Positions 2,422 through 14,944 of a DNA stretch of 20,717 nt are shown here, piece after piece (position 1 is the stretch's first letter; the number at the start of each line of letters is the position of its first letter). The translations under genes were made by a program, and so were the position numbers. The notes under the pieces were generated by a model. The model had not been told where the DNA came from and made no database searches. It saw only the letters and a program-made list of their open reading frames with translations. The stretch is from a virus, in the IMG/VR virus record IMGVR_UViG_3300020056_000205, positions 1 to 20,717 of that record. One strand, 5' to 3'.

Positions 2422-3104
2422 AAGCTTATATTCTCAGGATAGATACACCTATATCACATAAGTATGCAAAAATGTGTGCAGAAACATGTGATGTTATTGA
2501 TTTAGATTGGGAATACTTTGATGGTTGGTCAGATATTACTGGTCGTGCAGCTTGGTGCCAAACTGGTATTAAGATGAAATTTTACGAACCACCTTTAATT
2601 GTTGATAATATGACACCAGCTCAAAAAGCAAATGCGTGTTCAGCTGGACATGGAGCAATATGGAAAAAGATTGCAGAAGGTGACGATGAAGTTGGTATTG
2701 TATTAGAGCACGATGCTTTAATGTATTATAAACCAGATATTAAAGTACCAGATAACTATATTATTGTATTAGGTTATAAATTAGCTAACTATCATGATTA
2801 TAGATTTTTAGATGCTAAGAATGAACCTAGAGAATTAATTAATATTGATGGTCACGAAGGTGCTCATGCATATATGATGACTAAACGAACTGCACAAAAT
2901 CTTATACATGAGATTGAAGAAAAGGGTATTTTAGGCGCTGTTGACAATGCATATTTTATACGAGGACAACGTAGAACAAATATTCCGTTGTGTATTATGT
3001 CACCAACACCAGCAATAGGTTATTTAAGAGAAAGTACAATATGGAATAAATCTGCACATGTAAATTATGAATTTATTCCGTCATTTGCAAAATATTATAA
3101 ATAA
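2418..3104 (+). CDS. GT25-like glycosyltransferase
   Basis: This 228-residue protein resembles glycosyltransferase family 25 (LPS biosynthesis type). It starts M-K-A-Y-I-L-R-I-D, contains C-S-A-G-H-G-A-I-W (residues 74-82), matching the family's S-x-G-x-x-x-x-H/W region, and then G-I-V-L-E-H-D-A (93-100), equivalent to the usual L-E-D-D-A metal/nucleotide site with the first Asp replaced by His. A later histidine/glycine stretch (D-G-H-E-G-A-H-A-Y) is compatible with the family's downstream catalytic region. The GTG start overlaps the sulfotransferase stop (GTGA). It is the last gene of the operon; its stop codon lies inside a TATAAATA late promoter motif for the next transcription unit. Confidence 0.75.
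   Translation: MKAYILRIDTPISHKYAKMCAETCDVIDLDWEYFDGWSDITGRAAWCQTGIKMKFYEPPLIVDNMTPAQKANACSAGHGAIWKKIAEGDDEVGIVLEHDALMYYKPDIKVPDNYIIVLGYKLANYHDYRFLDAKNEPRELINIDGHEGAHAYMMTKRTAQNLIHEIEEKGILGAVDNAYFIRGQRRTNIPLCIMSPTPAIGYLRESTIWNKSAHVNYEFIPSFAKYYK
3096..3103 (+). promoter_or_regulatory. T4-type late promoter motif
   Basis: TATAAATA, identical to the T4 late promoter consensus, spans the end of the GT25-like gene, 41 bases before the ATG at 3145. The gap 3105-3144 is the expected late leader. Identification is by motif and position only. Confidence 0.55.
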
Positions 3105-3144: not shown

Positions 3145-5568
3145 ATGGGCAAAACATTCCAAGAATACTTAGCCGCAAAGGCAAAAGAAAAAGAACTTCA
3201 AGAAGTCGAAAAAGATGCCGATGGCAACATCGTCAACAAAGATGGCAAAATCTTGAAGAAAGCTCGTGGTAATAAAAAACCAGAGCCTGAAGCTGATGGC
3301 AAAGAAACTGAGGTTGATACAAAACCAGAGACAGATGATGAACCTGAAGCAGAACTTAAGCCAAAGAAAAAAGTTAAGTCAGATGACGAAGTTGAAGTCG
3401 ACGACACCAAGGACGACCCAAAAGCTGCAAGTAAAGACAGCGATAAAGCGGGTACTGAAATTGATGATAAAGAAGATGACGATAAAGAAACCGGCCAAAA
3501 CATAGTTAAAAAGACAGCCGATAAAAACTCATCAGATGAAAAACAAAACAAGAAAAGATTTAATCCAACGAGATTCGTGAACGTTAAACCAGAAATTACA
3601 GAAAATTTAAACGAAGCAGCGTATGACACTGCTGTTATATCATTTGGGCGTATGAATCCCGTGACAGTAGGTCACGAAAAGCTCATCAATAAAGTTCTTA
3701 CAACTGCAAGAAGTAGAAGGGCTACACCGTTTGTATATCTATCTCACTCTACAGACCCTAAGAAAAACCCTCTACCTTATGACCAAAAACTCATGTTCGC
3801 TCAGGCAGCCTTTGGTCGACGTCTTGTTGTAAAATCTCGAGCACGAACAATCATTGAAGTTGCTAAAGAATTACAAAAGACATTTAAAACTCTAATCCTC
3901 GTGGTTGGCTCAGACCGCGTCAAGGAATTTGATGACCTACTCAACAGATATAATGGAAAAGAGTTTACATTTGATAAAATTGAAGTTATTTCAGCTGGGG
4001 AAAGAGACCCGGATGCAGAAGGTGTTACAGGAATGTCTGCATCTAAAATGAGAAAAGCAGCTGAAGACGGAGATTTAGCATCCTTCAAAAAAGGCCTACC
4101 TCGTAAATTACAATCAAAAGCCAAATCGGTATATGGCGCAGTAAGAGCAGGTATGGGTATTAAAGAAGGTATTGAAGAAATTGAACAAGACTATTTAGAA
4201 GAAGCATTGACTCGTCAACAAAGACTTAGACGTAAAATGGTTATGCGTCGTATGAAGTCTAAGATTATGATGGGTCGACGTAGAGCATTAAAAAAGAGAG
4301 CTACTCTTGAAGTATTAAAGAATAGGTCTCGTAGGTTAGTATATCGTATGTTAAAGAAGAGATTCTCAAAAGGACGATATGCAGAAATGCCTTATTCAGC
4401 AAGACAAAGAGTCGATGACAGAATTAAAAAGATTTCTAAAAATAGAATTGATACTTTAATGAGAAGATTCTTACCTAAAGTTAAAGCAGTTCAAAAAGCT
4501 CGATTAGCTAATAAAATTAAGAAAAAGAATTCTACAAGTACACCTAAACCAAAGTCAGTTAAAGTTGCAAAACCAGCAATTGAGAGTTACGACGCTCTAT
4601 GGGAAGCATTTCAAGCTGAAAGAGTTGTTAAAGGTAAACTAGACCCAAACAGCCCAATGGGAAAAACGAAACTGACCGGCAGAGAAGTCTCACAATACTA
4701 CCGAGATAATCCAGCTGCTAAACGTGCTGCAAGAGATAAAAATGTCAAACTTGCTATTGAGTTGGCCCTGGATTTAGGCGGTAACATGAATTATGCGATA
4801 AAAGAAATTGAAAAATTAAAGCGCAATTTATCTAAACATCCTGAAGTTAAAAAAGCATTGCGTAGTGCTAATGAAAACTTTGACTATGAAAGCTATGCAG
4901 AATATACTCTTGAAGCTCGAATGAAGAGTCCACAAGATAAAGATGTTAAAGATTTAAAAGGTACACAACCAAGCAAATATTATAAGGGCGTCAAGAAAGA
5001 TACTAAAGACGACCGTGATGCTCATTTTAAGCGTAAAGCTAAAATGGACGATGATAATCCAAAAGCATATACACCAGCTCCTGGTGACAAAGACCCTAAA
5101 ACGGGCGAACTAAAGAAAACAAAACCATCTAATCACACAACTAAATTTAAGAAAATGTTTGGAACAGAACAGAAAATCTTAAAAAGACCTCACATGCTTA
5201 TTGCAAGAAATGGTAAACCAGTTGTAGATAAAAGATTTAAACACTTTCGCAATGGACCAGAGCAACTTGAAGCTGAACGTCAAAGAAAGATGGCAGCGTT
5301 ATTACAAGTAGCTGAAGATGTAGAATTTATTTTTGAGAGTAACCCAAAAGCTGCTCTTAAGAAAAAGGCAGAAAAAACTGGTATGCCTTATGGAATATTA
5401 AAGAAAGTATTTGATAGAGGAGTAGCTGCATGGAGAACAGGTCACAGACCTGGAACAACTCCAACACAATGGGGATTAGCTCGTGTTAATAGTTTTGCTA
5501 CTAAATCATCAGGAACATGGGGTAAGGCTGATAGCGACCTCGCTAAAAAAGTAAGGGATAGCAAATAA
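3145..5568 (+). CDS. Modular head protein with nucleotidyltransferase domain and capsid-targeting-like N-terminus
   Basis: This 807-residue protein appears built from modules. Residues 1-15 (M-G-K-T-F-Q-E-Y-L-A-A-K-A) closely resemble the T4 internal-protein tag MKTYQEFIAEA. Residues 40-140 are acidic Lys/Glu/Asp-rich linker. Residues 158-330 are a cytidylyltransferase-like/NMNAT-type domain with F-G-R-M-N-P (167-172), T-V-G-H (174-177, a TxGH form of HIGH as in CoaD) and M-S-A-S-K-M-R (297-303). Residues 353-462 are extremely Arg/Lys-rich, suited to binding DNA. Three further basic modules follow (about 480-575, 590-720 and 733-807). They are separated by acidic segments containing I/L-x-E sites (L-N-E|A at 155, L-E-E|A at 351, L-W-E|A at 485, I-F-E|S at 729). 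I recall similar fusions in marine T4-like phages. The small-molecule substrate is unknown. No strong SD precedes the ATG. Confidence 0.75.
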   Translation: MGKTFQEYLAAKAKEKELQEVEKDADGNIVNKDGKILKKARGNKKPEPEADGKETEVDTKPETDDEPEAELKPKKKVKSDDEVEVDDTKDDPKAASKDSDKAGTEIDDKEDDDKETGQNIVKKTADKNSSDEKQNKKRFNPTRFVNVKPEITENLNEAAYDTAVISFGRMNPVTVGHEKLINKVLTTARSRRATPFVYLSHSTDPKKNPLPYDQKLMFAQAAFGRRLVVKSRARTIIEVAKELQKTFKTLILVVGSDRVKEFDDLLNRYNGKEFTFDKIEVISAGERDPDAEGVTGMSASKMRKAAEDGDLASFKKGLPRKLQSKAKSVYGAVRAGMGIKEGIEEIEQDYLEEALTRQQRLRRKMVMRRMKSKIMMGRRRALKKRATLEVLKNRSRRLVYRMLKKRFSKGRYAEMPYSARQRVDDRIKKISKNRIDTLMRRFLPKVKAVQKARLANKIKKKNSTSTPKPKSVKVAKPAIESYDALWEAFQAERVVKGKLDPNSPMGKTKLTGREVSQYYRDNPAAKRAARDKNVKLAIELALDLGGNMNYAIKEIEKLKRNLSKHPEVKKALRSANENFDYESYAEYTLEARMKSPQDKDVKDLKGTQPSKYYKGVKKDTKDDRDAHFKRKAKMDDDNPKAYTPAPGDKDPKTGELKKTKPSNHTTKFKKMFGTEQKILKRPHMLIARNGKPVVDKRFKHFRNGPEQLEAERQRKMAALLQVAEDVEFIFESNPKAALKKKAEKTGMPYGILKKVFDRGVAAWRTGHRPGTTPTQWGLARVNSFATKSSGTWGKADSDLAKKVRDSK

Positions 5569-5828
5569 TGAAAGATTTAAAAGGCAGTATTAACGAAGCA
5601 ATTGCACAAGTTGCTAATTATAATAAAGGTCAACGACCTATTGTTGAAGCAGAAACTGAAACTTTAGACGAAAGAGAAACAGATAAATACGGTAATCCAA
5701 AACTAAGTGATGCTGATAAAGATAAGATTGGTAAACTTAGAGAACAGATTGCTGAGAAAGAAAAAGAAATTAATAAGTTAAAAATTCAAATAGCAATGAC
5801 TAAGAAATTTGCAGGATTACCACAATAA
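5568..5828 (+). CDS. Small charged coiled-coil protein, candidate internal head protein
   Basis: This is an 86-residue protein of unknown function. The N-terminus M-K-D-L-K-G-S-I-N-E-A (I-N-E|A) has the same layout as the tagged neighbours. A second candidate cleavage region, P-I-V-E-A-E-T-E-T-L-D-E-R, lies near residues 25-38. Residues about 48-78 are a Lys/Glu heptad-like helix (I-G-K-L-R-E-Q-I-A-E-K-E-K-E-I-N-K-L), probably a coiled coil. The ATG overlaps the stop of the 807-residue gene and its stop overlaps the next ATG, so all three are likely translated together. It has no signal or membrane segment. Packaging in the head is inferred only from context and the N-terminal pattern. Confidence 0.7.
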   Translation: MKDLKGSINEAIAQVANYNKGQRPIVEAETETLDERETDKYGNPKLSDADKDKIGKLREQIAEKEKEINKLKIQIAMTKKFAGLPQ

Positions 5829-7270
5829 TGAATAAACGAGTAAGAGACTTAATTAACGAAAGCGGTGCTGGACTGTGGGGGACAGATAAAGCACGTAAGC
5901 GCTTACAGAAAGATACACCTGGACAAGAGATTAAATCGCTCGTTAAAAAGTCTCAGAAAGTTTCTGAAGCAATGTCTGATTCTGAAAAACATCAAGCGTT
6001 ACAAAAGAAAATTGCTGATGTTAGAAGACAGTACAGAGCAGGAACATGGGACGGCAATGTTAATAAAGATGGTAAACCTGTAATCCATGTTGATGGTAAA
6101 CCTGTCATTGTTGAAGATGTAAAAAATCCTTATAAAGCATACGATAACCAAAAGCTTCAGCAATTAAAGAGAAACATGAGAGATAATGTTGCTAACTTAA
6201 CACAACGTATACGTAAAAGAGCTGGTAATGCATCTCAAAGTTTAAAAGACGAATTAAAAGATTTAGAGCGTAAATCTAAGTTAATTGATTTAGCATTAAG
6301 AGATAGTGCAAAACAATCTGATGCTAAAAGAGCTGGTGTAGGCTCAGACAGAGAAACATTTAGAGATAGACAAAAACGTTTAGGTAAGCCTCAAACAGAA
6401 CAAGTTACTGATAAAGGACTTAAGATGGTCAATAAAAATGGTAACGTTGTTTACGCTACTCGCGATAAAGTCAAACATTACCAAGACCTAGGTTATAAAT
6501 CAGCTGCCTATATGGATGCTCGTAAAAAGACACTTTCACGAACTAATCAAAATCCAGAAAAATCATTTGCTGATGTACGAAGAATAGCTAAAGATATACA
6601 AAACAAAAAAGCTGGTGATACACCTCAAAGATATAGCGAATCAGTTGAGCAACTTAACGAACTTAAAATATCATTTAAATTTGACAAATTAGCAGACGCT
6701 GCAAGGGCTGAACGTAAAGCCATGCAGATGAAAAAATTAGATGTTGACTCTGAAAAGATTCAAGGTAAAAATATGTGGTTACTACATGTTACTGGTAATT
6801 ATACCGATATTATGAAGTATATCAAAAGAGTTGACCTTGAAGATAAAGTTCATGAGTCTAAAGAAATGAGTTTAGACGATATTAAAAAGAGATATGCTAA
6901 AGAGATAATTGCATTCCAAAATGATGGAAAGGATTTATCAAGTGGCGCTAAAATGGCTTTATATGGTTATGTTGGTTCAGATGCTTTAAAGACAGATGAC
7001 GCCGACGAGTTTGATGATTTCGTTATGGGTTTACAAATGGGTAAATACAAAAAAGAGTCATTAGATGAAGGTTCTGAATCTTGGGAAGATGGATATAAAA
7101 GAAGAGTTGTAAAAACAACCAAGCCAGAGCACAAAGAAAAAGGTTACAATTGGAGAATTAAGGGTAAAGATAAAGCTCATCTCACAATCAAGTTATATAA
7201 AGACAAACCTTCTCAAGAAGAATTTAACAAACAAATGAAACGTGTAGCAGGACACGAGTTCGGAGGATAA
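5828..7270 (+). CDS. Large basic modular protein, candidate processed internal head protein
   Basis: This 480-residue protein is unrecognised as a whole. It starts M-N-K-R-V-R-D-L-I-N-E-S (I-N-E|S), matching the tag pattern. It then shows V-S-E-A-M near residue 46, a short tandem repeat D-G-K-P-V-I (81-86 and 89-94), and a basic helical stretch (105-160). A compact module at 196-235 (K-M-V-N-K-N-G-N-V-V-Y-A...Y-Q-D-L-G-Y-K) recurs at the C-terminus of the protein encoded at 10142. A second site-bearing linker (S-E-S-V-E-Q-L-N-E|L, 270-278) precedes a beta/alpha domain, and a third (S-L-D-E|G, 411-414) precedes the C-terminal basic domain. The ATG overlaps the previous stop. The pattern of basic domains joined by acidic linkers with I/L-x-E sites suggests processing by the prohead protease. 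Confidence 0.7.
   Translation: MNKRVRDLINESGAGLWGTDKARKRLQKDTPGQEIKSLVKKSQKVSEAMSDSEKHQALQKKIADVRRQYRAGTWDGNVNKDGKPVIHVDGKPVIVEDVKNPYKAYDNQKLQQLKRNMRDNVANLTQRIRKRAGNASQSLKDELKDLERKSKLIDLALRDSAKQSDAKRAGVGSDRETFRDRQKRLGKPQTEQVTDKGLKMVNKNGNVVYATRDKVKHYQDLGYKSAAYMDARKKTLSRTNQNPEKSFADVRRIAKDIQNKKAGDTPQRYSESVEQLNELKISFKFDKLADAARAERKAMQMKKLDVDSEKIQGKNMWLLHVTGNYTDIMKYIKRVDLEDKVHESKEMSLDDIKKRYAKEIIAFQNDGKDLSSGAKMALYGYVGSDALKTDDADEFDDFVMGLQMGKYKKESLDEGSESWEDGYKRRVVKTTKPEHKEKGYNWRIKGKDKAHLTIKLYKDKPSQEEFNKQMKRVAGHEFGG
6068..6112 (+). repeat. In-frame tandem repeat encoding DGKPVI twice
   Basis: Two copies of a 24-base unit (the second less complete) start at 6068 and 6092. The first 15 bases of each are identical and encode D-G-K-P-V. 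It keeps the reading frame, so it looks like a small in-gene duplication. Confidence 0.6.
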
Positions 7271-7272
7271 AA

Positions 7273-8748
7273 ATGAAACGTTTTAAGAGCTTATATAAAG
7301 AAGCTAAAGTAGAAGTCGATGATATCTCAGTTGGTGTAAAGAAAAAGAAACCAGCTGGAGTTAAAGCAGATGAGCCTTTAAAGGGTTATGCTTATAACGA
7401 GAAAATGAAATTCAAGTTTAAAGGTAAGAAAACTGCTTTACACATTAAGAACAATAAATTTTTAGAATCTGCTGAAGAAATAACTGAAGCTAAAGCCGAT
7501 TTAGTTAAAACAATCGAAGCTGAAATTAAAAAGTATGGTCCTAAAGACATTGATACACCTACATATAAGCAAGCAATTACCTTAGTTAAAAAAGGTGATA
7601 TGAAGTCTTTAAAGAAATTAATCTATACATCTGATACTGAACCTTCAGAATTTTTATCTTACGCACTAGCTCAACATGACCCTGCAGCATTTAAGAAAAT
7701 GTATCCTCGAGCAAAAGCTGGCGACTATTTAAGAAGCATTGTTATCCAACATGGTGAGTCCGTTGAAATCAGCGAAAGGAGAGTTACTGATATTGATGTA
7801 GAGCAATCTGCACGTGAACTTAAAAAAGCTAAATTAGATAAAGCAAAAGAAAAAGTTCAGAACGAAGACGAAGAAGAAGAAAAGTCTTATATTGTAAGAG
7901 TACAAGGTAAAGGTGCACCTGGTCGCGATTATATAAATGTTAAGACAAGAGCTCATTCTCAAAAAGCTGCTCTTGAAAAAATCAGAAAGCAATATCCTGG
8001 TCGTGTGTCATATAGTATCGTTAAAGAAGATTACGACACAGCAATCTCTTTGTCTATAGAAGAAATTGAAATGAACGAAGCTCTATCTCCTAAAGAGAAA
8101 GAAAAGCGTTTACTTATGATTAAGAAAGCTGTTCAAAAACTTAATAGAGCAAACATCGAAAAAGCCAAAAAGATGGCTATGAGAGATATGAAAGCATCTG
8201 GTATGTTTGACGATGCTATCGACGAACATATTAAGGGCGGTGCTGACTCTTATTATGCTTTACAACAAGCAAAAAAGAAAGCTGCAAAAATGGGTAAAGT
8301 TTGGAGTAAAATGGGTCAAGACGAAAAAGATAGATTTGTTGATAAAGAAATGAAAGCAGCAGGTTACGAGAAAAAACCTGGTAATCAAATGTATACAAAA
8401 ATACCAACTGATAGCGAAAGAAAATTTGCCGATAAAGTAAGAGCAAAAGACAAAGAAGTTTCTAAAATGTCAGAACCCGATAAAATAGATTATTTTAGTA
8501 AAAATCCTTCTGCATCTACGGGCGGTCATGATATTTCTGATGAAGGGAAGAAAAAAATTCAAATAGCAAGATATCAATCTCAAATAGATGCTTTAGAGAA
8601 ACGAGCTATTGAAGCCCAAAGAAAAGCTTATGAAGCTGATGAAGAAGGCGATGATTTGGCATATGAAAAATATCAAGATGAAGAAGAATATTTTTTAGAG
8701 AGAATTCGTGAAGTAGAAAATAGAATAGAAGATTTAAAAGACGAATAA
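7273..8748 (+). CDS. Large basic modular protein with several candidate protease sites
   Basis: This is a 491-residue protein of unknown function. Residues 1-12 (M-K-R-F-K-S-L-Y-K-E-A-K) match the internal-head-protein tag layout (M-K-x-F/Y-x-x-F/L-x-x-E-A). Acidic linkers with I/L/M-x-E sites separate the modules: I-T-E|A (70-72), I-S-E|R (166-168) and M-N-E|A (267-269). Between them lie a helical module (75-158), a beta-alpha module (204-250, Y-I-V-R-V-Q-G...), a very basic helix (272-312) and a lysine-rich region to about 400. The last 65 residues are a charged coiled coil. The ATG follows the previous stop by two bases and is preceded by GGAGG inside the end of the upstream gene. Composition and neighbours suggest DNA-associated head contents. 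This is inference. Confidence 0.7.
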   Translation: MKRFKSLYKEAKVEVDDISVGVKKKKPAGVKADEPLKGYAYNEKMKFKFKGKKTALHIKNNKFLESAEEITEAKADLVKTIEAEIKKYGPKDIDTPTYKQAITLVKKGDMKSLKKLIYTSDTEPSEFLSYALAQHDPAAFKKMYPRAKAGDYLRSIVIQHGESVEISERRVTDIDVEQSARELKKAKLDKAKEKVQNEDEEEEKSYIVRVQGKGAPGRDYINVKTRAHSQKAALEKIRKQYPGRVSYSIVKEDYDTAISLSIEEIEMNEALSPKEKEKRLLMIKKAVQKLNRANIEKAKKMAMRDMKASGMFDDAIDEHIKGGADSYYALQQAKKKAAKMGKVWSKMGQDEKDRFVDKEMKAAGYEKKPGNQMYTKIPTDSERKFADKVRAKDKEVSKMSEPDKIDYFSKNPSASTGGHDISDEGKKKIQIARYQSQIDALEKRAIEAQRKAYEADEEGDDLAYEKYQDEEEYFLERIREVENRIEDLKDE

Positions 8749-8751
8749 TCT

Positions 8752-8916
8752 ATGAAAAGATTCAATAAATTTTGTGAAGATGCTGAATTGAATGCTCGTC
8801 AAGCTGCAGAAAAAGCGCGCATGATTGACCAACACAAAAGAGAAAAAGAATCTTTAAAGCGCCGACATGACAACCAAGATGCACAGGCAGCAAGAGCAAA
8901 AGAGCAAAGACAATGA
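8752..8916 (+). CDS. 54-aa tagged basic helical protein
   Basis: This short gene encodes 54 residues. It starts three bases after the previous stop, and its TGA overlaps the next ATG (ATGA), so packing supports it. The N-terminus M-K-R-F-N-K-F-C-E-D-A-E matches the tag pattern of the neighbour that starts M-K-R-F-K-S-L-Y-K-E-A. The remainder is one continuous charged helix rich in Arg, Lys, Glu, Gln and Ala, with no hydrophobic core. If the tag is removed, a 40-residue basic peptide similar in kind to T4 internal peptides would remain. No function can be assigned. Confidence 0.65.
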   Translation: MKRFNKFCEDAELNARQAAEKARMIDQHKREKESLKRRHDNQDAQAARAKEQRQ

Positions 8917-9278
8917 GAAGATTTAAGGATAGCTTTGGTATTTACGAGGGAGTTACAGTACCTCTCGAGCAACCTATGCTTGAGTTTGAGGAAGACAAAG
9001 ACCCAGAAATTAATAAACCAAAGCGATCGGGCGGTCCTACAAAATATGTAGTATATGTTAAAGACCCTAAAACTGGTAATATTAAAAAGATAAACTTTGG
9101 CGATGTCAAAGGTGGACTAACTTCTAAAATAAACGACAGAGAAGCAGCTAAATCTTTTAATGCAAGACATAACTGTGATACAAAAACAGATAAAACTAAA
9201 GCTGGTTATTGGGCATGTCGTTTACCTAAATATGCAAAAAGCTTAGGTTTAAAAGGTGGAGGAAATTACTTTTGGTAA
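8913..9278 (+). CDS. Conserved phage protein with RHNC and YWACR motifs
   Basis: This 121-residue protein has the tag-like start M-R-R-F-K-D-S-F-G-I-Y-E-G and an acidic linker (L-E-F-E-E-D-K-D). A compact module follows from residue 43 (K-Y-V-V-Y-V-K-D-P-K-T-G-N-I-K-K-I-N-F-G). Its end holds the distinctive A-R-H-N-C-D-T-K-T-D-K-T-K-A-G-Y-W-A-C-R. I recall this Cys/His/Trp module from marine phages and some large DNA viruses, where it has no assigned function; the two cysteines and the histidine could bind metal. The ATG overlaps the previous TGA. The last residues (G-G-G-N-Y-F-W) overlap the start of the lipoprotein gene. Confidence 0.75.
   Translation: MRRFKDSFGIYEGVTVPLEQPMLEFEEDKDPEINKPKRSGGPTKYVVYVKDPKTGNIKKINFGDVKGGLTSKINDREAAKSFNARHNCDTKTDKTKAGYWACRLPKYAKSLGLKGGGNYFW
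9258..9262 (+). promoter_or_regulatory. Ribosome binding site supporting a TTG start
   Basis: GGAGG lies nine bases before TTG at 9272. It supports the rare TTG start needed to give the lipoprotein a complete signal peptide. Confidence 0.6.
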
Positions 9279-9649
9279 AAAATATTTTAATAGGTGCTTT
9301 GTTAATAGTAACAGCAGGTTGTTCAAGTCTTGGTAAATACTTACCAAGTGATTTTGATAATGTTGAGTATGGTAAGTTAGTAGAACTCAACGTTATAGCT
9401 AATATGCCACAAGATGATTGGTGCAAAAAATCAACAATCAGCCAAATGAATTACAGAGCTTTATATTTACACACATATGCTGAACATCGTTTAAACGATA
9501 ATATTACAGAGATATATAAAGGATTGCATGGTCTTACAGAAGAATTAGTAAATAAAGAAGAACCTAGCCAAGCATATTGTAGAATTAAGAGAACAAACAT
9601 ACACGATATTACAACTAATGTATTAAGTGCATTTGGAGATAGAAAGTGA
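9272..9649 (+). CDS. Small predicted lipoprotein, 125 aa
   Basis: The protein begins M-V-K-N-I-L-I-G-A-L-L-I-V-T-A-G-C-S-S: a short charged N-terminus, a hydrophobic core and a lipobox (T-A-G-C) with the lipidated Cys at residue 17. It should be exported and anchored in the cell envelope. The mature part has two more cysteines (in D-W-C-K-K and A-Y-C-R) that could form a disulfide in the periplasm; it is otherwise unrecognised. The start is TTG at 9272, seven bases inside the preceding gene, with GGAGG upstream. The next in-frame ATG would remove the signal peptide. Envelope lipoproteins in phages can act in lysis or superinfection exclusion, but nothing here decides between these. Confidence 0.75.
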   Translation: MVKNILIGALLIVTAGCSSLGKYLPSDFDNVEYGKLVELNVIANMPQDDWCKKSTISQMNYRALYLHTYAEHRLNDNITEIYKGLHGLTEELVNKEEPSQAYCRIKRTNIHDITTNVLSAFGDRK

Positions 9650-9864
9650 GTATTGATACTTGGAAAGCAGAAACAGAACAAAGAGCAAAAGAATATAAAA
9701 GTCTGTTAGATGACGGACATTTAAAACAAGACGAATTTGAAGAATTAATAGAAGACCTTATTGATGAGTCAAAGATTAACGCTGATTTAGAATTAGAAGA
9801 AAATAAAATTTTAGTTCAAAAAGCAATAGATGGAATTAAAGTAATAGCTGGTTTAATTAGCTAA
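9646..9864 (+). CDS. Small acidic helical protein, 72 aa
   Basis: This protein is unrecognised. It starts with GTG overlapping the lipoprotein stop (GTGA). The sequence is nearly all helix-forming and acidic (D-E-F-E-E-L-I-E-D-L-I-D-E-S) with a hydrophobic C-terminal end (A-I-D-G-I-K-V-I-A-G-L-I-S) too short and broken to be a clear membrane span. Tight coupling to both neighbours supports it as a real gene. It lacks the internal-head-tag pattern of surrounding genes. Confidence 0.65.
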   Translation: MSIDTWKAETEQRAKEYKSLLDDGHLKQDEFEELIEDLIDESKINADLELEENKILVQKAIDGIKVIAGLIS

Positions 9865-9865
9865 A

Positions 9866-10120
9866 ATGAATCCATATATTGATGATGGTGGTATTCGTAC
9901 CTTTGATATAAATGCGTTAGACGAAGAATTTGTTTGGCACAGAGATAACGAAGACCGAGAAATAGAAATACTTGAAGGTGACGGTTGGCAATTTCAAGCT
10001 GAAAATGCTTTACCTTTTCTATTAAAACCAGGTTTAAGGTTTGAAATTAAAGCTGGAGAATACCATAGAATCATTAAAGGGATTAATGATTTAAAAATTA
10101 GAATAAATAGAAACATATAA
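9866..10120 (+). CDS. Cupin-like small protein, 84 aa
   Basis: The sequence looks like a single small cupin barrel. E-F-V-W-H-R-D-N-E-D-R-E-I-E-I-L-E-G-D-G-W-Q-F-Q is followed by L-L-K-P-G-L-R-F-E-I-K-A-G-E-Y-H-R-I-I-K-G and a closing strand L-K-I-R-I. The order of short strands, the H-R-D near the start, the P-G turn and the later Y-H-R are typical of cupin motifs 1 and 2, although the full set of metal ligands is not obvious. I recall similar short proteins in marine T4-like phages without a known role. It starts one base after the previous stop and has no strong SD. Its end contains an AATAAATA motif that may drive the next gene. Confidence 0.65.
   Translation: MNPYIDDGGIRTFDINALDEEFVWHRDNEDREIEILEGDGWQFQAENALPFLLKPGLRFEIKAGEYHRIIKGINDLKIRINRNI
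10102..10109 (+). promoter_or_regulatory. Possible late promoter motif (AATAAATA)
   Basis: AATAAATA lies 32 bases before the ATG at 10142, at the end of the cupin-like gene. It fits the NATAAATA form described for T4-like cyanophages. In AT-rich DNA a chance match is possible; a strong AAAGGAG follows before the start. Confidence 0.35.
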
Positions 10121-10141
10121 TAAATTTTAAAGGAGACTGAA

Positions 10142-10954
10142 ATGTCATTTAGAGAAATTATTGAAGCTAAGGTTACAGAAGCTGTTGACCAGTCTTTAGG
10201 ATTAAACGAAGCTACATTGAAAGTTAGTAATTTTACAGGTAAAATTGCTGATAAAGCTGGCTTCAAAATGAAGAAGGTTGGTGACTCTAATCCAGGCGCA
10301 GATGTAATATTTACTGGCGATGAAAAAGCCATTATTAGTTATGCGAGAAAATATTTAGGTACTGATGGAAAAACATTAAGCGATATTCAAAGAGATGTTG
10401 CTGGTGGACCTGGTTCTCAATTTGGGTATAACGAAGATTTTAACGGTGAAAACATTGATGCTGAACTATTAGAGCGTATTGCAGAAATGACTGACGACGA
10501 GTTTGAGTCTTTCTGTCAGTTCTGTGTTGAAGCACAACTTGACGAATTATCACCAGAAACACTTTCAAATTACAGAAAGAAAGCGTTTAAATCATATAAA
10601 AAATCGAGCGACGCACTCGGAAGAACTGCTAATTTTTCAAGAAGAGTTTACTCTGATAAGGGTATTGCTAAACACACAAAAATTGCTGATAAAAGACACA
10701 AAGGAATTGGTTCAGCAGATAAAAGAAGTAGAGCTAGGTCCGGTAACGACCATGTTGGCCGTTGGGATTTAGACAAAGATGCTGGATATCATACTTTATC
10801 TAAGAAAACAAGCAAACAAATGCAAAAAATTAAAGGGTATGGTAAAGACCAATCCGGTAAAAACAAAATAGTTAGTCCAAACGGTAAAGTAGCATATGTA
10901 TCTAGTTCTGAAATTAAAGACTACATCGACCGTGGCTGGAAAAGGAGTAAGTAA
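10142..10954 (+). CDS. Modular basic protein with tandem I/V/L-x-E-A sites, candidate internal head protein
   Basis: This 270-residue protein opens with three closely spaced candidate prohead-protease sites: I-I-E|A (6-8), V-T-E|A (11-13) and L-N-E|A (21-23). A small domain follows (25-80, with V-I-F-T-G-D-E-K-A-I-I-S-Y-A-R-K-Y-L-G), then an acidic linker (105-135) leading into D-E-L-S-P-E-T-L-S-N-Y-R-K-K-A. I recall that last segment as a recurrent element in phage virion proteins. Residues 145-200 are strongly basic. The C-terminus (242-266, K-I-V-S-P-N-G-K-V-A-Y-V) repeats a module found in the 480-residue protein. The start has a good AAAGGAG. A DNA-binding head-content role is inferred from composition and tags. 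Confidence 0.7.
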   Translation: MSFREIIEAKVTEAVDQSLGLNEATLKVSNFTGKIADKAGFKMKKVGDSNPGADVIFTGDEKAIISYARKYLGTDGKTLSDIQRDVAGGPGSQFGYNEDFNGENIDAELLERIAEMTDDEFESFCQFCVEAQLDELSPETLSNYRKKAFKSYKKSSDALGRTANFSRRVYSDKGIAKHTKIADKRHKGIGSADKRSRARSGNDHVGRWDLDKDAGYHTLSKKTSKQMQKIKGYGKDQSGKNKIVSPNGKVAYVSSSEIKDYIDRGWKRSK

Positions 10955-11286
10955 TGACTTTAAATGAAAAATTAGAATACGCTCTGAATGCCTTTTTCGA
11001 AGCTAAAGCAGGAGATGAATGCTCTTGCTGTGGTAATAAAATTGATGAAGAAGGTAAATGTGGATGTGGCCCGGAATGCAAGCACTGTGGCGGACAACAC
11101 GACATTTCAGAAGCTAAAAAGAAAGAAGAAGAAAAGCTTGACCCAGTCGATAAAGCAGATGCAGACATCGATAATGACGGTGATGTAGATGACACTGATG
11201 ATTATTTAAAGAATCGTCGTAAAAAGATTGGTAAAGCAATCGACGCTAAAAAATTAAAAGAGATGGCAAAAGCCTCTAAGAATTAA
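10954..11286 (+). CDS. Small protein with Cys-rich zinc-ribbon-like segment and EF-hand-like loop
   Basis: This 110-residue protein starts M-T-L-N-E-K-L-E-Y-A-L-N-A-F-F-E-A-K-A (F-F-E|A, tag-like). Residues 23-45 contain seven cysteines and end in E-C-K-H-C-G-G-Q-H, probably binding zinc. Residues 71-82 (D-I-D-N-D-G-D-V-D-D-T-D) match an EF-hand/dockerin calcium loop with acidic residues at positions 1, 3, 5, 7, 9 and 12. A basic tail (L-K-N-R-R-K-K-I-G-K-A-I) follows. I recall the EF-hand-like segment plus Y-L-x-x-R-R-K-x-I-G-K-A-I in other marine phage proteins. The ATG overlaps the previous stop and is preceded by AAAGGAG. The role is unknown; metal-dependent binding to DNA or protein in the head is possible. 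Confidence 0.7.
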   Translation: MTLNEKLEYALNAFFEAKAGDECSCCGNKIDEEGKCGCGPECKHCGGQHDISEAKKKEEEKLDPVDKADADIDNDGDVDDTDDYLKNRRKKIGKAIDAKKLKEMAKASKN

Positions 11287-13772: not shown

Positions 13773-14552
13773 ATGGCAATAGAAAAAATTATCCAAGCTG
13801 CTATTGATAATAATCCTTTAAAGCTTAAAGAAGCTTTTGAAGACGAAATGAATGGTCGTTTACGAAGTGCTTTACAAGAAGCAGTTAGTAATATGAATGA
13901 AGATGATAGGTTTGGTGACACTGATAAAGTTACAATTGAATATAAAGGTAATGATGAGCGGCGCAAAGAAGAAGCAGAAAGATATGGAATTAAAATTGGC
14001 GCGCCAAGACAGAGAGATGGAAAATCTATCGTAACTGGTGACCATGATAAAGTTGCTAAATATTTAGCAAAACATTACGGTTCCGAAGAAAAAGCCAAAG
14101 AAAAACATCCAAGAGTTTTCAAGTCTGATGATGACAGTGGCGACAGCGAATTTAAACCAGTAGCTATTCAAGTAGGTGGCTCAGGAAATCTTCAAAAGAT
14201 ATTTGACGCTATGAACGAACAAGGTGAAGTAGGTTTAGATGAAATGTTAGGATTTGAGGGCGGAGGTGATGCCGATGTCCGTGGGGAAACTGTTTTTTAT
14301 CCAGACTCAGAAGTAGATGAAAATGGTTTAAAAGAAATTATAAAGAAATGTGATTACCGAACTAAACTATCAAATTACACTGCAAAGCGTATAGCTGCAC
14401 ATATAAACAACGGTGGTAAAGTTAATAGCTGGGAGCCTAGCGAAGACGATACACAAAACATCGGCTATGATGCAATATATTACAATGGCTTGCTTGAAAA
14501 TGTAATTAAGCCTAGTGGTTCAGGTTTAACATATAGAGCCAAATTAAGTTAA
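13773..14552 (+). CDS. Protein with gp67-like prohead-core N-terminal module
   Basis: Residues 1-40 (M-A-I-E-K-I-I-Q-A-A-I-D-N-N-P-L-K-L-K-E...A-F-E-D-E-M-N-G-R) are nearly the same as the start of the next gene's product and resemble the T4 prohead core protein gp67 (I-E-A-I-K-S-N-D-L...F-A-E-A-M-A-A-R). After this the 259-residue protein differs. It has a small domain with I-V-T-G-D-H-D-K-V-A-K-Y-L-A-K-H-Y-G (86-103), an acidic linker, a glycine-rich segment (V-G-G-S-G-N-L-Q-K-I-F) and a C-terminal domain of unknown type. The shared module suggests both proteins enter the same assembly, most likely the prohead core. The rest has no assigned role. Confidence 0.7.
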   Translation: MAIEKIIQAAIDNNPLKLKEAFEDEMNGRLRSALQEAVSNMNEDDRFGDTDKVTIEYKGNDERRKEEAERYGIKIGAPRQRDGKSIVTGDHDKVAKYLAKHYGSEEKAKEKHPRVFKSDDDSGDSEFKPVAIQVGGSGNLQKIFDAMNEQGEVGLDEMLGFEGGGDADVRGETVFYPDSEVDENGLKEIIKKCDYRTKLSNYTAKRIAAHINNGGKVNSWEPSEDDTQNIGYDAIYYNGLLENVIKPSGSGLTYRAKLS

Positions 14553-14569: not shown

Positions 14570-14944
14570 ATGTCTATTGAAAAAATTATAGCTGAAGCAA
14601 TTGAGAACAATCCGCTTAAGCTAAAAGAAGCATTCGAAGATGAAATGAATGTGCGTATTCGTGCTGCTCTTGAAGAAAAGTACAAAGAAATGACTTCTGA
14701 AGAAGAGGAAGTTGTTGCTGAGGAAACTGAAGAGCTCGTTGAAGAAGACGAAGATGAATCTGATGAAGAAGAATCTGACGATGACGACGAAGAAGAGGAT
14801 TTCGACGAAGCCGCTTGTGTCAAAGAAATGAAAAAGAGACACGCTGATGGCGAGAAAAAAGGCGATATCATCAAAGCTGTAAAAGAAAAGTACGGCTGTT
14901 CTGAAGCTAAGTGCAACGAATTATACGCTTCTAACTGCGGTTAA
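14570..14944 (+). CDS. gp67-like prohead core protein candidate with Cys-containing C-terminus
   Basis: This 124-residue protein has the gp67 plan: an amphipathic N-terminus (M-S-I-E-K-I-I-A-E-A-I-E-N-N-P-L-K-L), F-E-D-E-M-N-V-R-I-R-A-A-L-E-E-K, then a very acidic run (residues 44-80, mostly Glu and Asp). T4 gp67 is an 80-residue scaffold-core protein with the same order and an acidic tail. Here an additional C-terminal module follows with four cysteines (C83, C110, C115, C123; Y-G-C-S-E-A-K-C-N-E-L-Y). That module seems to occur in other marine phage proteins from memory. A strong AAAGGAG precedes the ATG. In T4, gp67 is encoded next to gp21 and gp22, but here it lies after lysozyme, so the assignment rests on sequence style. 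Confidence 0.6.
   Translation: MSIEKIIAEAIENNPLKLKEAFEDEMNVRIRAALEEKYKEMTSEEEEVVAEETEELVEEDEDESDEEESDDDDEEEDFDEAACVKEMKKRHADGEKKGDIIKAVKEKYGCSEAKCNELYASNCG

Follow-up and report, generated by a model that had tools for sequence, protein, structure and literature searches.

How do marine T4-like phages load enzymes such as a cytidylyltransferase into their virions? The question is raised by a gene cluster at positions 3145 to 11286 of IMG/VR record IMGVR_UViG_3300020056_000205, analyzed here whole (20,717 bases; the window), which is a piece of the genome of a T4-like marine myovirus. Such phages, the Kyanoviridae, are abundant in the ocean, and the nearest annotated kin of the window (Methylophilales phage Melnitz, Pelagibacter phage HTVC008M, and phage C48C1) all belong to this family. 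In relatives, the corresponding genes are flanked by the gp41 helicase (or the gp55 sigma factor) on one side and by the gp61 primase and nrdA on the other. A preliminary description of the window had noted that neighboring products begin with a pattern like the tag of T4 internal proteins and had read this as one address label on differing bodies and, hence, as virion cargo. The labeled cluster was confirmed, and the cargo reading is supported by the residue pattern, its reuse on unrelated bodies, and published virion proteomics of relatives; cleavage after Glu and injection into the host would follow in this lineage by analogy. The description overlooked further copies of the cut-site motif within the long proteins, located where modules meet, and these proteins therefore resemble polyproteins rather than single labeled proteins. 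We consider it probable that the cluster encodes cargo targeted to the head, in part as polyprotein precursors that a gp21-type protease cuts. Its parts are as follows (a slash within a motif marks the predicted cut; aa, amino acids; ORF, open reading frame).

3145..5568, plus strand: 807-aa multi-module protein (Pfam, PHROGs, label profile, AlphaFold2 model, and Foldseek)
3145..3183, plus strand: N-terminal label MGKTFQEYLAAKA (aligned with T4 MKTYQEFIAEA with one inserted residue)
3616..4167, plus strand: nucleotidyltransferase (PPAT/NMNAT-like) module, preceded by predicted site LNE/A (PF01467; phrog_3041, 1e-93)
4204..4590, plus strand: basic helical module, preceded by predicted site LEE/A (a separate ORF in Melnitz, HTVC008M, and C48C1)
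5338..5568, plus strand: DUF5824 module, preceded by predicted site IFE/S (PF19141, 1e-14; a separate ORF in C48C1 and others)
5568..5828, plus strand: 86-aa protein, label MKDLKGSINE/A (label kept in homologues with different tails)
5828..7270, plus strand: 480-aa mosaic protein, label MNKRVRDLINE/S, internal sites VSE/A, YSE/S, VHE/S, and LDE/G
7070..7267, plus strand: C-terminal module GSESWEDGYKRR... of the 5828 protein (a separate labeled ORF in relatives)
7273..8748, plus strand: 491-aa mosaic protein, label MKRFKSLYKE/A, internal sites ITE/A and MNE/A
8752..8916, plus strand: 54-aa protein, label MKRFNKFCED/A (Asp at position 10)
8913..9278, plus strand: 121-aa phrog_7595 protein, shortened label MRRFKDSFGIYE/G
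10142..10954, plus strand: 270-aa mosaic protein, second label type MSFREIIE/A, internal site LNE/A
10954..11286, plus strand: 110-aa protein, weak label MTLNEKLEYALNAFFE/A, DxDNDGDVD motif (phrog_4359, 4e-19)

All six N-termini quoted in the preliminary description were found at their gene starts (3145, 5568, 5828, 7273, 8752, and 10142), and the two weaker versions that it mentioned exist at 8913 and 10954. Its statement that each segment ends in an acidic residue holds for most of them but not for MGKTFQEYLAAKA, in which the residue at the cut position is not acidic; MKRFNKFCEDA does end in an acidic residue, but with Asp rather than Glu at position 10. In T4, label positions 4 and 7 serve targeting and positions 8 and 10 serve processing, and IPIII with Asp at position 10 is still targeted but no longer processed (PMC9026906). 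Hydrophobic or aromatic residues at positions 4 and 7 were found in the products of 3145 (with a shift of +1), 7273, and 8752 and, more weakly, in those of 5568, 5828, and 8913. An aliphatic residue at position 8 with Glu at position 10 occurs in 5568 and approximately in 5828, 7273, 8913, and 10142; 3145 lacks the Glu, and 8752 has Asp. By analogy with T4, the 3145 and 8752 products would be targeted but left uncut at the label. Even so shifted (+1), MGKTFQEYLAAKA is the best T4-label match (14.3 bits, with a profile built without window sequences), and the AlphaFold2 model of the 3145 protein places a helix at residues 3 to 19. Orthologues of the 8913 protein carry full labels (MKGFREFINE/SNFGLYEG and MKKFNNYIEENFGLYEG), of which the weak 8913 label is a shortened version. 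The label is absent from genes 9272, 9646, and 9866, the first of which (9272-9649) is a small lipoprotein-like ORF with lipobox LIVTAGC lying within the cluster.

The N-terminal pattern was commoner in the cluster than chance would allow. The motif [ILVMFYC]xE[AGS], starting at residues 4 to 18, was present in 6/11 cluster genes and in 23/370 (6%) of the genes that Melnitz and HTVC008M carry outside the locus (Fisher p=4e-5, a somewhat optimistic value because the region was picked by eye after the pattern had been seen). A label profile whose training set was limited to T4 IPI-III and five S-CREM2 proteins detected by mass spectrometry (MS) reached the threshold of at least 3 bits in 4/11 window cluster genes (p=8e-5) and in 10/79 locus genes overall (p=4e-5), compared to 11/584 genes elsewhere. 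The strict T4-register pattern, MK-x-F-K-x-F-[LI]-x-E, corresponds to T4 capsid-targeting residues 4, 7, 8, and 10 and heads 43 complete plus-strand ORFs in related viral contigs, where 1.16 are expected from shuffled N-termini (maximum of 4 in 200 shuffles). As a negative control, minus-strand ORFs gave 0 labels in viral contigs and 6 over all loci, which include S-SZBM1 records with real genes on the minus strand. Once similar bodies were removed, 35 distinct, unrelated proteins remained under the strict label, with F at position 4 in 28/35 and F or Y at position 7 in 29/35. The consensus in relatives is M-K-x-F-K-x-[FY]-[IL]-x-E, and its conserved positions fall exactly on the targeting and processing positions of T4 genetics given above (PMC9026906). 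The same label on unrelated proteins, as in a T4-type capsid-targeting sequence (CTS), was therefore found here.

Among the labeled bodies in related loci are several enzyme-like proteins. In L116:10207-10770, the label MKRFKQYISE/ stands ahead of an HD_4 domain (PF13328, 2e-16), as in ppGpp hydrolases, and the protein may be a packaged alarmone hydrolase. RimK-like ATP-grasp ligases (the ribosomal protein S6 modification family) carry the labels MKGFSSYLKE, MRNFSNFLSE, and MTQKFSQFITE (L083:3875-5320, L126:5033-6454, and L001:82-1131, respectively), and two of the three have a zinc-protease-like tail. Labels also occur on a PAP2 phosphatase (L101:15-644), a HAD/polynucleotide-kinase-like protein (L112:19158-19781), and an AAA_33/zeta-like kinase (L002:15855-16523; MKTFAELQE/G).

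Published proteomics shows that products of the equivalent locus are present in the virions of relatives. For S-CREM2, with 52 virion proteins (PMC10665884), we translated the genes and searched the products for the strict label, which was found in 5/52 virion proteins and 1/167 others (p=0.003) and in 5/28 non-structural virion proteins (p=2e-4). The five are an S-adenosylmethionine (SAM) hydrolase, a kinase, the cytidylyltransferase gp154 (MKNFSSFLTE/A), and two unknowns. From the equivalent locus, gp154, 155, 156, and 160 are present in the S-CREM2 virion, as are 136, 139, and the cytidylyltransferase 140 (MRFRQFIIE/A) in that of S-SZBM1 (PMC9146016). A cytidylyltransferase is also present in S-SM1 virions (PMC3037559), and homologues of the 3145 nucleotidyltransferase module thus occur in the virions of all three phages. 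A slightly relaxed strict pattern retained the virion association in S-CREM2 (p=0.04); two looser N-terminal patterns did not (p=0.17 and 0.32) and were set aside. Pooling S-CREM2 and S-SZBM1 gave p=0.007 for the strict label, and S-SZBM1 by itself did not repeat the link (0/30 virion proteins, compared to 2/188 others). This last result, the shortness of the motif, and the choice of the region after the pattern was seen are what might be expected if short amphipathic Glu-Ala N-termini were simply common in Glu-rich phage proteins and had no packaging meaning. Such a coincidence is largely refuted by the excess of strict labels over shuffled N-termini and by the independent profile enrichment, to which the virion association in S-CREM2 can be added, and we regard it as very improbable.

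Two further observations concern these proteomes. The virion-detected, Cas9-like annotated gp12 of S-CREM2 (L162, 7704-10313, minus strand) has a label-like segment slightly inside its N-terminus (...LRFASFMAE/A at residues 17 to 25). In S-SZBM1 (L166), genes 191, 192, and 194 form a second labeled cluster adjoining the terminase, with MKSFKSFLSE/S, MKTFKQYITE/A, and a 707-aa mosaic protein that has a SAM-lyase end after an internal ITYREFIAE/G; none of the three products is among the proteins of the published proteome.

What sets the long cluster proteins apart is their build. They are mosaics, in that differing segments of one protein match differing proteins when compared by BLAST with the ORFs of related loci. 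The 3145 protein runs from the label MGKTFQEYLAA through an acidic linker, the nucleotidyltransferase, the basic module, and further modules to DUF5824. Its segment 158-341 has a CoaD/NadD/FAD synthetase (PPAT/NMNAT) fold by Foldseek (E ~1e-3), in agreement with Pfam and PHROGs; a PDB sequence search with the nucleotidyltransferase module returned nothing useful. In the 5828 protein, homology segments 61-192, 346-409, and 415-480 are found in different proteins. We defined a predicted internal site as [hydrophobic]-x-E/[AGS], a motif fixed before the boundary test but after the proteins had been seen, and took boundaries from where BLAST alignments start, with a tolerance of several residues. 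Homology segments started near such sites in 46/126 cases, compared to 11.6 under circular shifts (p=2e-4). Distinct boundaries fell at sites in 13/50 cases, compared to 4.8 with shifted sites (p=3e-4) or 6.6 with Glu-matched ones (p=1e-3); the sequences behind these statistics are shared among relatives and were deduplicated, with no tree correction. Control motifs (polar P3; Asp or Lys for Glu) had no significant boundary effect.

The coincidence is best seen at the C-terminal module of the 5828 protein. Before GSE(S/T)W, unrelated contexts carry SLDE/, SIEE/, TVAE/, QLSE/, and AVTE/, among others, and at the site before GSES, [LIV]xE/G is kept in most unrelated contexts, also where the site is the ORF's own label; elsewhere the module is indeed a gene of its own with the label MKSFKEFISE/GSET or MKNFKTFLNE/GSET. 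At MNE/A of the 7273 protein, xE/A is kept in 6/6 unrelated upstream contexts. The basic module is found both split and fused: a hidden Markov model (HMM) of the internal module hits separate ORFs in Melnitz, HTVC008M, and C48C1 (E 1e-24 to 4e-11), and its upstream-unrelated contexts retain xE/A. The same is seen for the SAM lyase, which is the labeled gene gp6 in S-CREM2 and the C terminus of S-SZBM1_194 after its internal site. In the 10954 protein, a site ISE/A lies ahead of the DxDNDGDVD motif, and the same segment lies within S-PRM1 gp68 after TSE/A. Over all sites and contexts, the exact P3/P1 signature was kept in 30/81 upstream-unrelated homologues. The pattern is thus pronounced at certain sites and lacking at the rest.

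Structure models place the sites between folded modules. The AlphaFold2 models of the 807-aa and 480-aa proteins (mean predicted local distance difference test [pLDDT], 68 and 63; low predicted template modeling score [pTM]) consist of separate folded segments with low-confidence stretches between them, and 8/9 internal sites lie in stretches of pLDDT<50, compared to 2.4 expected (p=9e-4), including 4/4 in the 5828 protein. The internal sites are thus predicted to lie within disordered linkers.

We propose that several cluster proteins would be polyprotein precursors of independent modules (nucleotidyltransferase, basic DNA-binding-like, DUF5824, and unknown domains), with the disordered linkers between them holding gp21-type sites of the form hydrophobic-x-Glu followed by Ala, Gly, or Ser. 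The prohead protease of the phage would take off the label and cut the linkers, so that one labeled gene would yield several small packaged proteins able to exit with the DNA. A gp21-family protease is found in 4/4 relatives longer than 130 kb and is annotated in Melnitz, HTVC008M, S-CREM2, and S-SZBM1. IPI and IPIII act in the host cytoplasm against defences, and by analogy with them the products would be cut at these sites, ejected, and active in the host. Whether marine T4-like phages in general run such a cut-and-paste system, in which the maturation protease, acting in trans within the prohead, would dice head-targeted precursors made of exchangeable modules, one label would package several effectors in fixed ratios, and linker recombination would reshuffle the cargo, seems to us evenly poised.

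It is important to note that several observations weigh against our proposal. Cleavage at these sites is a prediction, and 37/50 boundaries lie away from any site. The sequence upstream of a module did not match in 51/81 contexts. The internal motif is no more frequent in locus proteins than in other phage proteins, and the polyprotein claim therefore rests on site position only. In the giant phage SPN3US, all identified cuts, self-cleavage aside, remove N-terminal propeptides and none split proteins. No gp21-type protease gene was found in the 20.7-kb window (this family search was uninformative, since the record is incomplete and the controls gave no hit). On the side of packaging, S-SZBM1 lacks the label-virion link, locus membership alone had no significant link to virion detection (p=0.06 and 0.18), and cyanophage authors caution in two studies that non-structural proteins might carry over through cesium chloride (CsCl) purification.

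Part of this evidence fits a different reading, in which labels target the proteins to the head and are perhaps removed, while the long proteins stay whole as multidomain injected effectors; xE/A or xE/G at module starts would then be the first residues of a homologous domain. Multidomain injected proteins are known among phage polyvalent proteins (PMC5512222), most boundaries are without a site, and the SPN3US prohead protease cuts almost solely N-terminal propeptides. However, an aliphatic P3, a variable P2, and Glu at P1 persist in unrelated upstream contexts, own labels included, and the keeping of P3 and P1 while P2 varies fits protease specificity better than domain conservation. The sites also lie in predicted disordered linkers, and control motifs have no boundary effect. 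We therefore consider whole effectors unlikely.

A structural role in the head core would account for internal sites in another way: as prohead core components like gp22, gp67, gp68, and IPIII, the proteins would give the head its shape and afterwards be broken down into peptides by the protease, so that the sites would serve disposal rather than module release. T4 gp22, gp67, and gp68 are indeed core proteins cut to fragments, and the locus has a strongly basic module and a gp67-like acidic protein, one of two neighbors downstream of the cluster.

13773..14552, plus strand: 259-aa protein (first 40 aa in common with the 14570 gene and many relatives; body differs)
14570..14944, plus strand: 124-aa protein (same 40-aa N terminus and an acidic tail; gp67 [PIP]-like layout)

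These neighbors have a common 40-aa N terminus, MSIEKIIAEAIENNPLKLKEAFEDEM..., ahead of different bodies; the segment heads many proteins in relatives, and 57/62 hits of the 13773 protein are restricted to residues 1 to 40. This N terminus may be a second, longer head-core label. Homology of the pair to T4 gp67, suspected from the layout, was not borne out (no BLASTP match; 1.8 bits to T4 gp67 by HMM, with the best E, 0.006, to a Melnitz gene in the gp67 position), and that of the basic module to T4 gp68, also suspected from the layout, was not significant. Besides this absence of significant gp67 or gp68 homology, a core role is at odds with labeled bodies that include a nucleotidyltransferase, RimK, an HD phosphohydrolase, PAP2, and a SAM lyase, which are unexpected for a scaffold, and with the conservation of the modules as folded domains, which have the sites between rather than inside them. 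We regard it as improbable, more so than uncut effectors.

Elsewhere in the window, a serine hydroxymethyltransferase-like ORF (103-918) is followed by glycosyltransferase- and sulfotransferase-like ORFs (identified by eye from translations), apparently host-type metabolic genes carried by the phage. The late-promoter-like TATAAATA had 70 matches with at most 1 mismatch, compared to 64 expected, and its exact copy at 3096 is thus no evidence.

The nearest known system is that of T4, which has three small internal proteins and Alt. The cluster proteins resemble IPI, IPII, and IPIII (and Alt, whose CTS is likewise cut by gp21) in their N-terminal label of about 10 residues with aromatic residues at positions 4 and 7, an aliphatic one at 8, and Glu at 10, in their small, often basic bodies that differ under a kept label, and, as published MS shows for products of the equivalent locus in relatives, in virion location. 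They differ in that the gene set is larger, that enzymes and long mosaic proteins with multiple internal sites also bear labels, that the locus belongs to the replication region and not, as in T4, to the region of gene e, and that processing is here predicted. No match to the T4 internal protein family turned up in Pfam or PHROGs scans; no direct comparison was run of the bodies, for which differences would be expected. A common label that packages diverse proteins in T4-like phages is an existing idea, already proposed by reviewers (PMC9026906). In the literature searched, capsid targeting was tied to cyanophages only in that review, and internal splitting of cargo by a prohead protease was not found described; the novelty therefore lies in the polyprotein reading. 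A readable label would allow injected proteins, with predicted RimK ligases, HD phosphohydrolases, kinases, and SAM lyases among them, to be listed straight from genomes. If the internal cutting is true, the maturation protease would double as a polyprotein processor, a role that is known from eukaryotic viruses and was not found described for T4-like head proteases in the literature searched.

Polyvalent proteins (Iyer et al. 2017, PMC5512222) likewise combine several unrelated domains in one phage polypeptide with predicted DNA co-injection, and their authors liken them to polyproteins released by peptidases. The 3145 protein, with its nucleotidyltransferase, basic module, and DUF5824, has such disparate domains. 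Unlike polyvalent proteins, which have embedded peptidases, the cluster proteins contained no embedded peptidase or other hallmark polyvalent domain in Pfam, PHROGs, and NCBIfam scans; the candidate protease would act in trans during head assembly, and the modules are mostly uncharacterized. In the giant phages phiKZ and SPN3US, many inner-head proteins are cut after x-x-E, propeptides can be cut multiple times, and the paralogues gp53 and gp54 have identical N-termini on diverged bodies (PMC5694885). Giant-phage propeptides, unlike the labels here, are at least 100 residues long, with A/S-x-E specificity and N-terminal removal rather than module splitting. Also close is the cyanophage virion cytidylyltransferase/NMNAT (S-CREM2, S-SZBM1, S-SCSM1, and S-SM1), a homologue of the 3145 module encoded in the same locus and detected by virion MS, which in the window is one module of a long chain. 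Its authors left its packaging route unexplained, and the putative labels of the S-CREM2 and S-SZBM1 enzymes offer one.

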